Shown piece after piece: positions 12,339-26,985 of a stretch of DNA of 39,757 nt. The stretch spans positions 1 to 39,757 of the forward strand of contig JABBOB010000027.1 in the NCBI GenBank assembly GCA_019352055.1, written 5' to 3'. The notes beneath the pieces were generated by a model. The model searched no databases. It was not told the DNA's origin and was given only the letters and a program-made list of their open reading frames with translations. The DNA comes from Acidobacteriota bacterium. Its GTDB lineage: Bacteria > Actinomycetota > Actinomycetes > Actinomycetales > Microbacteriaceae. Both the position numbers and the translations under genes were made by a program. The stretch's first letter is position 1. Each line of letters begins with the position of its first letter.

Positions 12339-15011
12339 TCACGGCCGCAGGAGCCGCCAGATCCGGTCGCGGGACATCGGGAGCTCGTGCGGGCGCACGC
12401 CCACGGCGTCGCGGATCGCGTTCGCGAGCGCAGGCGCGACGGGGTTGTAGGGCGCCTCGCTCATCGACTTCGCGCCGAAGGGCCCGAGATCGTCGTAGGT
12501 GGACGCGAACCGCACCTCCGTGAGCGGCACGTCCGCCATCTGCGGCACGTGGTAGTTGCGGAAGGTGCGGGTGATGACCTGGCCGTCCTCGACCTGTACC
12601 TCCTCGTAGAGCGCCGAGCCGATCGCCTGCGCGGTCCCGCCCTCGACCTGGCCGCGGAGCTGCTCGGGGTTCAGCACCGTCCCCGCGTCGACGCCCTGCA
12701 CCGACTTCAGGATGCGCACCTCCCCGGTACCGGTGTCCACGGCGACCCGGAAGCCGTGGACGTTGAAGGCGAGCGAGCGCGGGGTGCCGTCCGCGGAGCC
12801 GCTCGCCTCGAGCGGTGCGAACTCGGCGAGCGGCCGGAGCCCCGCCGCCGTCAGAACCCCGTCCGGTCCGATGCGGGACCCGGGTCCCGCAAGGGCGAGC
12901 ACGAGGTCCCGCAGTCGGAGGGCCGCGAGGTGCACGGCCTTCCCGGCCACCACGGTGCCCGCCGAACCGAAGGCGCCGGTGTCGTACCGCGCCCCGTCGG
13001 TGTCGGAGGAGCGGATCCGCACGGTCTCCGGCGGGATCGCGAGCAGCTCCGCCACGATCTGGGCGTGCACGGTCGTGGTGCCGTTGCCGAACTCCGCCGT
13101 GCCGACATCGAGCGAGACGCCGCCGTCCGCGTCGAGGACGAGGCGCACCTCGCTGAAGTGCCCCCGCGGTGGCATCGTCGCGATCATCCCGAGCGCCATA
13201 CCGGAGCCGACGCGCCACTGCGGGCCGGCCGGTTCGGGCTCGCCCGGCTCGGCGAGGGCCGCCTCCGTGAGGTCCAGCGCCTCCGGCAGGCCGTACCCGC
13301 CGTACTGCAGGTCGGTCTCCTCGTCCGCGTCCGTGACGACGATCGGGTCGCCCGGCCGGATCGTGTTCAGCCGCCGGATCGCGAACGGGCTGATGCCCAC
13401 CCGCCGCGCGAGCTCGTCCATCGCGGACTCGACCGCGAACATCACCTGGCCGAGCCCGTACCCACGGAACGCGCCGGAAGGCGGGTTGTTCGTGTACACG
13501 GCCTCGGCGCTCACCCGCCGGTTGGGCGCCCGGTACAGTGCGAGCGACTCGTGGCTGCCGTGGAACAGGACGCCGGGGCCGTGATTGCCGTACGCGCCGG
13601 TGTCGGCGAGCACGTCGACGTCCATCGCCGTGAGGACTCCCGCCGAGGTCGCTCCGAGGGTGACGCAGACCCGCTTGGGGTGCCGCATCGGTGCGATGGT
13701 GAATTCGTCCTCGCGGGTGAACTCGTACTGCGCGGGTCGCCCGGTCCGAAGCACGGCCATCGTCACGAGGTCCTCGGTCAGCAGCTCCTGCTTTCCGCCG
13801 AACCCGCCGCCGACGCGCGCCGCGACCACCCGCACGTGATCGGGGTGCAGCGCGAAGAGGCGGCAGATCTCGCTCCGCACGAGGTAGGGCACCTGCGAGC
13901 TGGTCCGCAGGACGAGCCGACCCTCCGCATCCAGCCAGCCGCGGGTCGCGTGGGTCTCGAGCTGGGCGTGGGCGACCCGTGCTGTCCGCCAGGTGCCGCT
14001 CACCACGACGTCCGCGCCCTCGAGCGCCGCGTCGACGTCACCGAGCTCGCCGTGGTGCTGCGCCACCACGTTGCGGAGCGGATCGCTGATCCGGCTGGCC
14101 TGCGCGTCCTTCCCGCCGTGGACGAGCGGCGCACCGGGACGGCGGGCCGCCTCCGGGTCGAAGACCGCGGGCAGCACCTCGTAGTCCACGACGACCGACC
14201 GGCAGGCCGCCTCCGCGAGCCCGATCGTCTCCGCGACCACGACCGCGACCCGCTGCCCCGCGAACCGGATCACGGGGTCGAGCACCAGGGTGTCGTCCGG
14301 GTCCTCGAGCCGGTTCTCGTGCCGACCCGTCGAGTACAGGACGTCCGGGGCGTCCTCGTACGTGAACACGGCGAGCACCCCCTCCATCGCCAGCGCGGCG
14401 GCGGTGTCGATCCGGCGGACGCGGGCGGAGGGGTGGGGGCTCTTCAGCACCGCGACGTGCGTCAGCGCGGCGGTCGTCAGATCGAGCGTGAACGGCTCCG
14501 ACCCCGCCACGATCCGCTCCGCCGCCGGTGCCCGGACCGCGCGGCCGATGCCGCCCGCCGCACCGCGCTCCTCGGTCGTGCCGTGCCCGGCGAGGGCGTC
14601 CCGGATGCTGCGGTAGCCGGTGCAGCGGCACAGGTTCCCTTTGAACAGCCGCGGGAGATCGGCCTGCTCCCCGCTCCGCACCGTCTCCGTCGACGCGGTC
14701 ACGACCATGCCCGCCGTGCAGAACCCGCACTGGAAGCCGGCCGCGTCCACGAAGTGCTGCTGCACCGGGGAGAGCCGACCCGGGGTGCCGAGGCCGCTCG
14801 CGGTGGTGACGCTGCAGCCGGCGACCCGATGGGCCGGGATGATGCAGGAGTGCACGGGCTCGCCGTCGAGCAGCACCCCGCAGGCGCCGCAGTCCCCGGC
14901 GTCGCAGCCCTTCTTCACCTCCATGCGGCCGGTCTCCCTGAGCAGGGTCCGGAGGCACTGACCCGGAAGCGGATCCGCTTCGACGCGCTCGCCGTTCACC
15001 TCGAACCTCAT
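12339..15011 (-). CDS. Xanthine dehydrogenase family protein, fused [2Fe-2S] and molybdopterin subunit
   Basis: An 890-residue fusion. Residues 1-142 are the two [2Fe-2S] domains of the family: Cys36, Cys41, Cys44 and Cys56 form the ferredoxin-like cluster, and Cys95, Cys98, Cys128 and Cys130 (CGFC...CRC) form the helical one. From about residue 150 the molybdopterin domains follow, with HATRGW, RVGGGFGGKQE, SGAFRGYGLGQ and GGTAQAIG. The C-terminal KSMSEAPYNP places Glu where family members have the catalytic base. Together with the FAD subunit it would oxidise hypoxanthine and xanthine to urate, inferred from nearby uricase and allantoinase; other aldehyde or purine substrates are possible. 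The ATG at 15011 overlaps the FAD-subunit stop (ATGA). Confidence 0.92.
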   Translation of the reverse strand: MRFEVNGERVEADPLPGQCLRTLLRETGRMEVKKGCDAGDCGACGVLLDGEPVHSCIIPAHRVAGCSVTTASGLGTPGRLSPVQQHFVDAAGFQCGFCTAGMVVTASTETVRSGEQADLPRLFKGNLCRCTGYRSIRDALAGHGTTEERGAAGGIGRAVRAPAAERIVAGSEPFTLDLTTAALTHVAVLKSPHPSARVRRIDTAAALAMEGVLAVFTYEDAPDVLYSTGRHENRLEDPDDTLVLDPVIRFAGQRVAVVVAETIGLAEAACRSVVVDYEVLPAVFDPEAARRPGAPLVHGGKDAQASRISDPLRNVVAQHHGELGDVDAALEGADVVVSGTWRTARVAHAQLETHATRGWLDAEGRLVLRTSSQVPYLVRSEICRLFALHPDHVRVVAARVGGGFGGKQELLTEDLVTMAVLRTGRPAQYEFTREDEFTIAPMRHPKRVCVTLGATSAGVLTAMDVDVLADTGAYGNHGPGVLFHGSHESLALYRAPNRRVSAEAVYTNNPPSGAFRGYGLGQVMFAVESAMDELARRVGISPFAIRRLNTIRPGDPIVVTDADEETDLQYGGYGLPEALDLTEAALAEPGEPEPAGPQWRVGSGMALGMIATMPPRGHFSEVRLVLDADGGVSLDVGTAEFGNGTTTVHAQIVAELLAIPPETVRIRSSDTDGARYDTGAFGSAGTVVAGKAVHLAALRLRDLVLALAGPGSRIGPDGVLTAAGLRPLAEFAPLEASGSADGTPRSLAFNVHGFRVAVDTGTGEVRILKSVQGVDAGTVLNPEQLRGQVEGGTAQAIGSALYEEVQVEDGQVITRTFRNYHVPQMADVPLTEVRFASTYDDLGPFGAKSMSEAPYNPVAPALANAIRDAVGVRPHELPMSRDRIWRLLRP

Positions 15012-15814
15012 CGGGCGAGCTCCTCCCGGATCTCCTCCGCGAGCAGGGCGGAGACCCCCTCGCGCCAGTCCGCGGCGCCGTGCGGGTCGCTGAACCAGGT
15101 GGGGATCCCGTCGATCGCCGCCGCCAGCTCGGCCGGGGACGGGACGTCCGGGAAGCGGATCACCTCCGGCCGGGTCGTGCCCCCCGTGACGCAGAGGACG
15201 AAGGCGCCGTCCAGGTCTCGCCGGGCGGCGAGCACCGTGCCCGCCCTGCCGAGCGGGGAGAGCGCGATCCGGCGGAACGCGGTCGTCGCGGCGAGAGCGG
15301 ACGGCTCGAACTCGATCGCGCGCACCACCTCCCCGGGGAGGAGGGACGTGGTCCGCTGCGCGAGCACGAACCGCGCGACGCGCTCGCGACGCTCGCCCCC
15401 GTCCGGCGTCCAGATCACGAGCTCCGCGTCGAGCGCGCCGCCGAGCCCGATCAGGGCGCCCGCCGCGAGCGCGGTCGCGATGTTCCCACCGATCGTCGCG
15501 GAGTGCCAGATCTTGAACGACTGCAGCAGGGACTCGGCGCAGTGCCGGAACAGCGGCAGCGCACGCCACCCCGGCTGCGACGGGATGGTGACGAGCTGCG
15601 CGACGGTGCACGTGGCGGCCAGCGAGAGGCCGCCGTCCGTGCGCCGCCGCCACGGGGTCCAGCCGAGCGCCATCAGATCGACGAGCCCCGTGAGGTGGTC
15701 CTGCGGCTCCGAGAACAGCCACGTACCGCCCGCGAGAGGGACCACCGTGTCGCTCAGCGCCAGCTCGGCGCGGGACCGGGGGATGCGCACCTCGGTCAGC
15801 GTCGGGAGATCCAT
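15008..15814 (-). CDS. Xanthine dehydrogenase family FAD-binding subunit
   Basis: A 268-residue molybdopterin-dehydrogenase FAD domain that passes electrons from the iron-sulfur clusters to NAD. The FAD pyrophosphate motif appears as VVPLAGGTWLF (family VxGGT), and ATIGGNIATALAAGAL is the second FAD motif. The CO-dehydrogenase-flavoprotein-like C-terminal part begins near FRRIALSPLGRAG. The ATG at 15814 follows a GGGGTGGGAT ribosome-site-like run; the ATG at 15832 would add MGWDGA. It is first in the leftward operon and coupled by a 4-base overlap to the fused Fe-S/Mo gene. A 24-bp inverted repeat lies about 50 bases upstream. Confidence 0.91.
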   Translation of the reverse strand: MDLPTLTEVRIPRSRAELALSDTVVPLAGGTWLFSEPQDHLTGLVDLMALGWTPWRRRTDGGLSLAATCTVAQLVTIPSQPGWRALPLFRHCAESLLQSFKIWHSATIGGNIATALAAGALIGLGGALDAELVIWTPDGGERRERVARFVLAQRTTSLLPGEVVRAIEFEPSALAATTAFRRIALSPLGRAGTVLAARRDLDGAFVLCVTGGTTRPEVIRFPDVPSPAELAAAIDGIPTWFSDPHGAADWREGVSALLAEEIREELAR

Positions 15815-15864
15815 GGCGCCATCCCACCCCATGCGCGTTGCGGCCGCGTTACGCGGAGCACGAA

Positions 15865-15924
15865 CGTGCATTTTGAAGGGGTTTCTGCCAGCCGCAGGCA
15901 GCAGAAACCCCTTCAAAATGCACG
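15865..15924. repeat. Perfect 24-bp inverted repeat between divergent genes
   Basis: Arms 15865-15888 and 15901-15924 are exact reverse complements around a 12-base spacer. The inner part of each arm is the run TTTTGAAGGGGTTTCTGC or its complement, distinctly richer in A/T than the surrounding DNA. Both flanking genes begin, rather than end, beside it (FAD subunit at 15814, membrane protein at 15953), so it is not a conventional terminator. It could be a mobile palindromic element, a regulatory dyad or a 5' hairpin in either transcript. Confidence 0.85.
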
Positions 15925-15952: not shown

Positions 15953-16294
15953 GTGCCCACCCCTCGCGCGCTCGTCGCCGCGGCCGCGGCCGCCTATCTC
16001 GCGAACGTGGCGCTCGGCACAGCCGTGCAGGCGCGGCTGGTCGACACGAGCCGGCATCGCTGGACGCACCATGCGCTGTACGTCGTGACGTCCACCCTGA
16101 CGGTGGTCGCGATCGCCGGATCGTTCGCGCGTCGCTCGCCGCGCGGCTGGCTGCTCGCCCCCGCGCTGGTGCCGCTCGCCCTGCTGCCGCGGGTCGGTCA
16201 CGACGCCCATGCGCGAACCGGGCTGGCCGCCGCCCCCTGGTACGCCGGGGCCCTGCTCGCCCCCATGCGGCTCGACGCCGCGAGGATGGACTGA
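15953..16294 (+). CDS. Small hypothetical membrane protein
   Basis: A 113-residue protein I do not recognise. It has an Ala-rich first membrane segment (about residues 6-26), a polar stretch [14 protein letters not shown] with several His residues, and hydrophobic segments at about 44-58, 66-82 and 92-107, giving four short helices. The GTG at 15953 is chosen because GATCGAGG lies just upstream and the frame before it is the inverted repeat. Its TGA overlaps the next gene's ATG by one base (16294), so it is translationally coupled to the nitroreductase-like gene. The function is unknown; a membrane partner of the reductase is only a guess. Confidence 0.65.
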
Positions 16295-17106
16295 TGGAGC
16301 TCCTCGATGCGATCCGTCGTCGCCACACGACCAACGGCGGCTTCCTCCCGGATCCCGTGTCCCAGGAGCACCAGCGGATCCTCATGGAGGTGGCGGGCCG
16401 GGCACCCAGCCAGCTGAACAGCCAGCCGTGGCGATTCGTGCTCATCGAGTCCCGCGAGACGATCGAGACGATCGCGGAGATCTCCGGGGCGAGCATGACG
16501 ACGGCCATGAGCAACGGCACCTTCTTCGAGCGGTACAAGCCGTACTTCCGGTTCTCGAAGGCGGAGATGGCACGGCAGCGGAGCGGGATGCTCTTCGACC
16601 GGCTGCCCGCACCACTGCGCCCGTTCACCTCGCAGGCGTTCACCTCGCGCGGCCAGAAGCTGATGAACTCCCTGCGCGTGCCGCAGACGCTCGGTGCGGA
16701 GAACCGGAGGCTGGTCGCGGGATCGCCGCTGCTGATCGGCGTGATGCTCGACCGCGCGGAGTACCGGGCCGGGGAGCTCTCCTCGTTCTACTCGCTGTTC
16801 AGCATGGGCGCGGCGATGGAGAACCTCTGGCTGACGACGGTCGAGCTCGGCATGGGCATCCAGTTCGTCTCCTTCCCGATGGAGGTGCCGGGGGAGTGGG
16901 ATCGCATCGTCGCCCTGCTGAACGTGCCGGACGAGCTCGAGCTGATGGCCGTCTACCGTCTCGGCTACGTGCCCGAGGAGCGGCGGAGGCCGGCCATCGA
17001 CTGGACCAGCTCCGAGCGGAAGCTGCCGTCGCAGTACGTGTTCCGTGAGCGCGCCGACGCGCCGCAGGCGGGGTGGGACGAGCTCGTGCGGGCCCCCGAG
17101 CACTGA
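16294..17106 (+). CDS. Nitroreductase family protein
   Basis: A 270-residue flavoprotein of the nitroreductase superfamily. The N-terminus has [15 protein letters not shown] and [16 protein letters not shown], the FMN-binding RxS/T and N-x-Q-PW-RF signatures. The central [24 protein letters not shown] is the hydrophobic dimer helix, and [14 protein letters not shown] ends the fold. An insertion of roughly 60 residues (about 75-135), with an aromatic-rich [11 protein letters not shown], is longer than in minimal members. FMN-dependent NAD(P)H oxidation is expected; the physiological substrate is unknown. It starts one base inside the previous stop codon. Confidence 0.9.
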
Positions 17107-21165: not shown

Positions 21166-21182
21166 TTCCACCCGGAACCCGG

Positions 21183-21224
21183 CGAAGGGCCCCGGACTCC
21201 TCACGAGGGAGTCGGGGCCCTTCG
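21183..21224 (+). terminator. Terminator of rplJ-rplL
   Basis: CGAAGGGCCCC (21183-21193) pairs with GGGGCCCTTCG (21214-21224), and after one bulged G the inner GACTCC/GGAGTC pairs around a 7-base loop. It is a very stable 17-bp hairpin 18 bases after the rplL stop. Confidence 0.85.
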
Positions 21225-21290
21225 TCATGCCCGCCGGGGTGCCGGGCGCTCGCACCCGTCAAGATGAGCGGACGACACGAAGGAGTGGCG

Positions 21291-26944: not shown

Positions 26945-26985
26945 GAGCGGGCCCGGTGCATCCGGTGGATGCACCGGGCCCGCTC
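26945..26985 (-). terminator. Intercistronic hairpin between binding-protein and permease genes
   Basis: Arms 26945-26963 and 26967-26985 are perfectly complementary over 19 bases with a GGT loop. It follows the binding-protein stop (27009) and precedes the permease start (26900). Such hairpins commonly give more binding protein than permease, by partial termination or by protecting the upstream mRNA. No strong T tract follows, so read-through is expected. Confidence 0.8.

Follow-up and report, generated by a model that had tools for sequence, protein, structure and literature searches.

A palindrome between two divergent gene starts

The window, which is the whole stretch of 39,757 nucleotides analysed here, contains a palindromic element at positions 15865-15924. 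An inverted-repeat scan placed its left arm at 15865-15888 on the plus strand (consensus GTGCRTTTYGAAGGGGTTTCTGC) and the right arm, the reverse complement of the left one, at 15901-15924 on the minus strand. The arms are complementary at 24 of 24 nucleotides and stand 12 nt apart, with the spacer at 15889-15900 forming a loop that differs among the family copies described below. Judged from the scan and from the copies elsewhere in the genome, the family unit covers about 15866-15923. The element has a GC content of 55%, compared with 71% for the window.

On the left, the gene for the FAD-binding subunit of a xanthine-dehydrogenase-like molybdenum hydroxylase (15008-15814, minus strand; PF00941 and gene finder) starts at 15814, 50 nt from the palindrome. 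Among plasmid-borne sequences, the hydroxylase has its nearest relatives in actinobacteria (Rhodococcus, 63%; Nocardia, 59%). On the right, a small ORF without a Pfam match (15953-16294, plus strand) starts at 15953, 28 nt from the palindrome, and its stop codon overlaps the start of a nitroreductase-family gene (16294-17106, plus strand; PF00881) that is present in all seven genus genomes. Gene starts, stops and spacers throughout were taken from our own codon-usage gene-finder script. The first-pass annotation had described two exact 24-base arms with a 12-base spacer, a core composition unlike the surroundings and a position between divergent gene starts, and each of these descriptions holds.

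Folded as plus-strand RNA, the inner 58 nt of the palindrome reached -44 kcal/mol (z -12), a value that none of 200 shuffles matched, and the minus strand reached -46 kcal/mol. By our own hairpin scan, the window contains two hairpins scoring at least 17, while ten first-order Markov copies of it contain none. No TTTT was found near the window copy. The search of the window against Rfam returned one match at the gathering score, the bacterial small SRP RNA (RF00169; 39666-39757, minus strand), which is cut by the window end. Two other hairpins of the window are of different kinds. A perfect 19-bp hairpin lies at 26945-26985, 23 nt behind a stop codon, and the orthologous gene ends in three congeners (G001, G002 and G006) bear other hairpins; the other, at about 21182-21227, is a gene-end hairpin of the ordinary kind, rich in GC and with GAAGGG in its arm by chance.

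A dispersed hairpin family in the host genome

The own genome (G000) was compared with those of six congeners (G001-G006); four of these seven genus genomes are draft assemblies, in 124 to 350 contigs. The genome search for further arm copies, which the first-pass annotation had suggested as a check, gave 42 BLAST rows that represent 22 places, and the strict core pattern occurs at 25 places. Its proposal of a dispersed REPIN- or MITE-like element therefore stands as to dispersal, with some 22 to 25 genomic places, and is not supported as to a REPIN, since Y1_Tnp (RAYT) was found in none of the seven genus genomes. When a covariance model built from 19 copies was run over both strands and 150 of 3311 candidates were scored, at least 78 sites matched at E <= 1. 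Of the 31 genomic occurrences of the core TTYGAAGGGGNTTC, 30 fall inside known family hairpins, and one, at C29:54726, stands outside the inspected set.

The arms have changed together. Seven of the 23 pairs are altered on both sides, giving 24 two-sided cells, and 94.8% of cells pair. None of 500 shuffles came up to the observed values for cell count, pairing or covariation score; the number of pairs was reached by two of them and that of pair types by 66. RNA folds showed a single stem per unit, not two inverted REP hairpins.

For the placement of copies in G000, the 22 pattern matches were reduced by one inside a gene and by one ordinary hairpin (window 21175), and contig-start copies and copies outside the pattern were left out of the count. 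The resulting 20 copies comprise eight between minus-minus neighbours, six convergent, four plus-plus and two divergent; for 17 of the 20, a stop codon is no more than 30 nt away. The convergent bias is non-significant in G000 alone (p 0.07). The third idea of the first-pass annotation, a 5'-UTR hairpin, may apply to the window copy, but a position between two gene starts is rare in the family, with two of 20 copies including that of the window; the neighbours of the second one resemble, by eye, aspartyl-tRNA synthetase and a phosphoglycerate-mutase-like protein. The statement that the palindrome is not a shared terminator is right for the window locus, but it does not extend to the family, which usually stands directly behind stop codons.

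Contigs C51, C101, C62 and C26 of G000 begin inside family hairpins and a copy at C59 near 320-330 adjoins a run of N, indicating that the repeats break the draft assembly. Two contig starts of this draft carry an identical 55-nt unit followed by unlike flanks. Taken together, we are confident that the palindrome is a copy from a hairpin family that is real, dispersed and lineage-specific; its site in the window is unusual for this family.

Hairpin families of the congeners

The strict G000 pattern was found in one of 398 genomes of the host's taxonomic family, namely its own. A wider genome collection, from which the own genome was possibly left out, gave four single sites in unrelated phyla, and no plasmid copy of the element was matched. 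The sole match on a viral contig was rejected as a true copy, since it sits in a stretch of local repeats.

Diverged forms were found within the genus. With 150 candidates scored per genome, the covariance model gave at least 113 matches in G002, at least 12 in G001, at least three in G003, at least two in G004 and at least one in G005, where weak single matches may be due to chance, and none among the candidates scored in G006. Counted per strand over whole genomes, core A (GAAGGRGWTY) occurs 25 times in G000, 45 times in G002 and once each in G001 and G004, with no occurrence in G003, G005 or G006. Family B (GCTCACGCTTC) has 13 matches per strand in G001 and 15 in G002 and none in the other five genus genomes, and family A' (TTCACSGATAMGGRG) has 26 in G001 and none in the other six. 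The stretches of G001 and G002 were picked for holding copies, so their hairpin densities are biased upward.

The placement behind genes is common to these families. Copies within 30 nt of a stop codon make up 31 of 33 for family A and eight of nine for family B in G002, and 16 of 17 for family B and 18 of 20 for family A' in G001; this amounts to 73 of 79 copies in the G001 and G002 family sets and to 90 of 99 across five family sets, G000 included. A 48-member cluster of G002 consists of families A and B merged by single linkage. The context test of this merged set against all spacers gave 26/19/3, and convergent spacers are enriched in it.

The gene-end hairpins of G006 form small clusters of two or three only. 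Long gene-end hairpins with arms of up to 42 bp and a repeated GTGTAGGT motif were also observed in this genome (G006:C1, about 863640 and 864649; L107). In four other genera, 100 kb each yielded 12 hairpins in all at a score of at least 16, mostly behind genes, and no repeated family was seen by eye in these stretches.

Arms, loops and the probable copying of units

The arms of family B in G001 are nearly invariant, while all 17 of 17 loops differ. The loop length is constant: gaps of 4 to 40 would have been accepted by the pattern, yet each of the 28 matches of family B, in G001 and G002 together, measures 51 nt. In family A of G002 all 33 examined cores differ from one another, and the whole-genome list holds one identical core pair (C1:447203 and C2:45713). 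The columns outside the arms show high entropy in this family. The units of family A' in G001 range from 45 to 76 nt with variable loop length. Three of its 55-nt units stand at separate places and are one loop base apart, and a pair of 46-nt units shows no difference at all. A coupled C/G exchange in both arms is all that separates one 55-nt unit from its nearest counterpart. In the flanks of such near-identical units, only 3 to 7 of 14 bases match.

By eye, no consistent direct repeat, such as the target-site duplication of a MITE would leave, accompanies the copies of A' or of G000; the flanks of A' are complementary instead. The bases directly outside the A' arms pair within copies more than between copies (p 0.001), an effect absent in the other four family sets (p 0.06 to 0.52). 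As a lead, A' units could have inserted into older palindromes. The transposase search in the genus genomes was made with PF01797 (Y1 transposase; RAYT/IS200), which matched in none of the seven, and the positive control matched in five of 14 known genomes.

Different families at the same gene ends

Hairpin possession is associated between orthologous gene ends of the same neighbour orientation (Mantel-Haenszel OR 5.5). At a score of at least 14, co-directional orthologous ends comprise 16 with a hairpin on both sides, 26 on the first only, nine on the second only and 139 on neither (p 1e-6), and the corresponding numbers for convergent ends are 11, 9, 11 and 25 (p 0.07). Where both sides bear strong hairpins (16 rows, 13 places, some of them ordinary hairpins and not family members), no common 8-mer was found at ten of the 13 places. 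Family switches are clear at one gene end, which bears GTGCATTTCGAAGGGG in G000, TTCACGGATACGGAG in G001 and TTCCGTTTTGAAGGAG in G002, and at another, which bears family B in G001 and family A in G002. An identical 13-nt loop of family B, shared by one G001 and one G002 copy, was considered as a sign of shared descent; this reading was dropped because the orthologous G002 gene end bears a family A hairpin. Many orthologous gene ends are free of any hairpin, and the element is therefore dispensable at any single place.

A possible role at transcript 3' ends

A canonical intrinsic terminator was rejected: the place behind stop codons fits, but TTTT within 12 nt was found on none of 167 hairpin sides, with distances in this test searched from -20 to +40 nt. 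The window copy itself also fails the gene-end placement of such terminators. Gene-end placement, a symmetric stem and the missing T-run together fit two-sided 3'-end hairpins that lack a U-tract.

We propose that the palindrome belongs to a REP-like, RAYT-less family of dispersed hairpins with its usual site directly behind stop codons. Each unit, being symmetric, would form a stem of about 23 bp in transcripts of either strand and may act as a two-sided 3'-end element, either as a terminator without a U-tract (I-shaped) or as an obstacle that stops 3' exonucleases. New units would arise by copying without a Y1 transposase and would take over or replace gene-end hairpins, so that species drift to families of their own. 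The window copy would be an off-site gain between two gene starts. We infer both the function and the copying mechanism; the 3'-end function appears the likeliest one, and for this reason we regard the explanation as a whole as somewhat probable. Several observations tell against it: the conservation of the arms exceeds the need of a simple terminator stem, convergent spacers alone miss significance for the ortholog association, as does the convergent bias in G000 alone, many orthologous gene ends bear no hairpin, and two of the 20 placed G000 copies, that of the window among them, stand between divergent genes.

In co-directional family hairpins, 21 G-U and 22 A-C mismatches were counted. This is no strand bias, so selection on the RNA strand is not apparent, which tells against a firm RNA claim. 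This result, together with the hairpin-free orthologous gene ends, the near-identical G001 units at separate places with unlike flanks and the identical 55-nt unit with different flanks at two G000 contig starts, would also suit a purely selfish miniature element, which contributes to neither termination nor mRNA stability and lies behind genes merely because insertion elsewhere does harm. We consider that reading unlikely, if worth serious attention, as orthologous gene ends share hairpin possession beyond expectation, the position of 90 of 99 copies within 30 nt of a stop codon is tighter than gene avoidance requires, and the PF01797 search found no candidate enzyme. A bolder form of our proposal, to which we would give similarly limited weight, is that the arms of gene-end hairpins are read by a species-specific factor. 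Copied without a Y1 transposase, new families would overwrite older hairpins, perhaps by inserting into palindromes already there, and the sets of elements would turn over between species while the positions stay.

The sequences could also be DNA sites of a specific protein at gene ends, for example a nucleoid or supercoiling factor, with the hairpin potential as a by-product. Such a site need not keep complementarity, whereas paired changes keep it through variable positions of the arms, and the loop length of A' is inconstant (units of 45 to 76 nt). These points make a protein site quite improbable, despite the nearly invariant arms around loops that vary at constant length in family B of G001 and G002 (28 of 28 matches of 51 nt), the lack of a wobble bias and the enrichment of convergent spacers in G002.

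The window locus in the congeners

The FAD-subunit gene is the other neighbour of this locus in G000, G001, G002 and G004 and was not found beside the nitroreductase-side locus in G003, G005 or G006. The block upstream of its start (15815-15853, minus strand) is alike by eye in G000, G001 and G002; the stretch common to these three on the FAD-subunit side reaches up to GTTACG, and the element starts 12 nt farther, again by eye. In the spacer upstream of the small ORF, the palindrome is absent in all six congeners, and the orthologous spacer of G002 has a weak, different inverted repeat. The simplest account from these comparisons would be an off-site gain of the window copy in the G000 lineage, although a loss elsewhere is also possible.

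The first-pass annotation had considered the palindrome as the target of a dimeric regulator of both the molybdenum-hydroxylase and the nitroreductase operons, in keeping with its location between the divergent starts. By the annotation's own test this claim fails, since none of the six congeners has the dyad in the spacer before the small ORF; copies of the element moreover adjoin many unrelated genes. A conserved operator was thus rejected, and we hold an operator function of this kind to be very improbable.

Comparison with known systems

DNA-uptake signals occur mostly as scattered single copies. In the present genome such single copies are nearly absent, with 30 of the 31 core matches inside family hairpins. 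Paired uptake signals of the type known from Neisseria and Haemophilus, with hairpins at gene ends, are therefore hardly credible here, even though such pairs make intergenic hairpin families in those groups (PMC2267715). The hairpin terminators of Neisseria and Pasteurellaceae resemble the present ones in having a species-specific motif in inverted pairs.

Our preferred reading, a REP-like family with a 3'-end function, invites comparison with three other systems. According to the available parts of the respective papers, REP sequences are repeated extragenic palindromes of 20-40 bp, some of them species-specific, with several families per genome (PMC3733652), and are frequent between convergent genes (PMC1525189). 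The present hairpins are likewise repeated extragenic palindromes, in species-specific families of which one genome can hold several, and they too are often found between convergent genes. However, their unit is longer, at about 58 nt including a stem of some 23 bp, flanks inspected by eye show no conserved unpaired GTAG or CGTC end, and a RAYT-type gene, as known from REPs and REPINs, was found in none of the seven genus genomes. Lacking both the tetranucleotide tag and a RAYT, they are not classed as GTAG or CGTC REPs. CGTC REPs have no dedicated transposase according to PMC3733652, by which some species with REPs may also lack REPtrons.

SLS families are repeated, mostly intergenic stem-loops, many of them of unknown role (PMC2267715, available in part), and the present family is similar in these respects. 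They differ in being a broad catalogue class, whose description in the available parts of that paper does not include family turnover at orthologous gene ends; the terms actinobacteria, Leifsonia and stop codon are absent from its main text. Structured transcript ends lacking U have been reported for Streptomyces in the available parts of PMC8269248 and PMC12207403. These I-shaped or U-lacking terminators of GC-rich actinobacteria share with the present hairpins the stable stem behind genes and the missing U-rich tail, but they are not described there as repeat families with a common arm sequence. A literature search of partial coverage found no prior description of the present hairpin families.

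For the window locus alone the meaning is modest, as the palindrome would be an off-site copy and not the site of a regulator. The families as a whole offer a case of REP-like spread that is small enough to be counted, and no RAYT gene was found in the genomes concerned. Different families at the same orthologous gene ends, together with near-identical units at separate places, open two old questions to testing. One is by what means palindromic repeats can spread in the absence of a known transposase, the other whether such repeats are elements of transcript 3' ends or are merely tolerated there.
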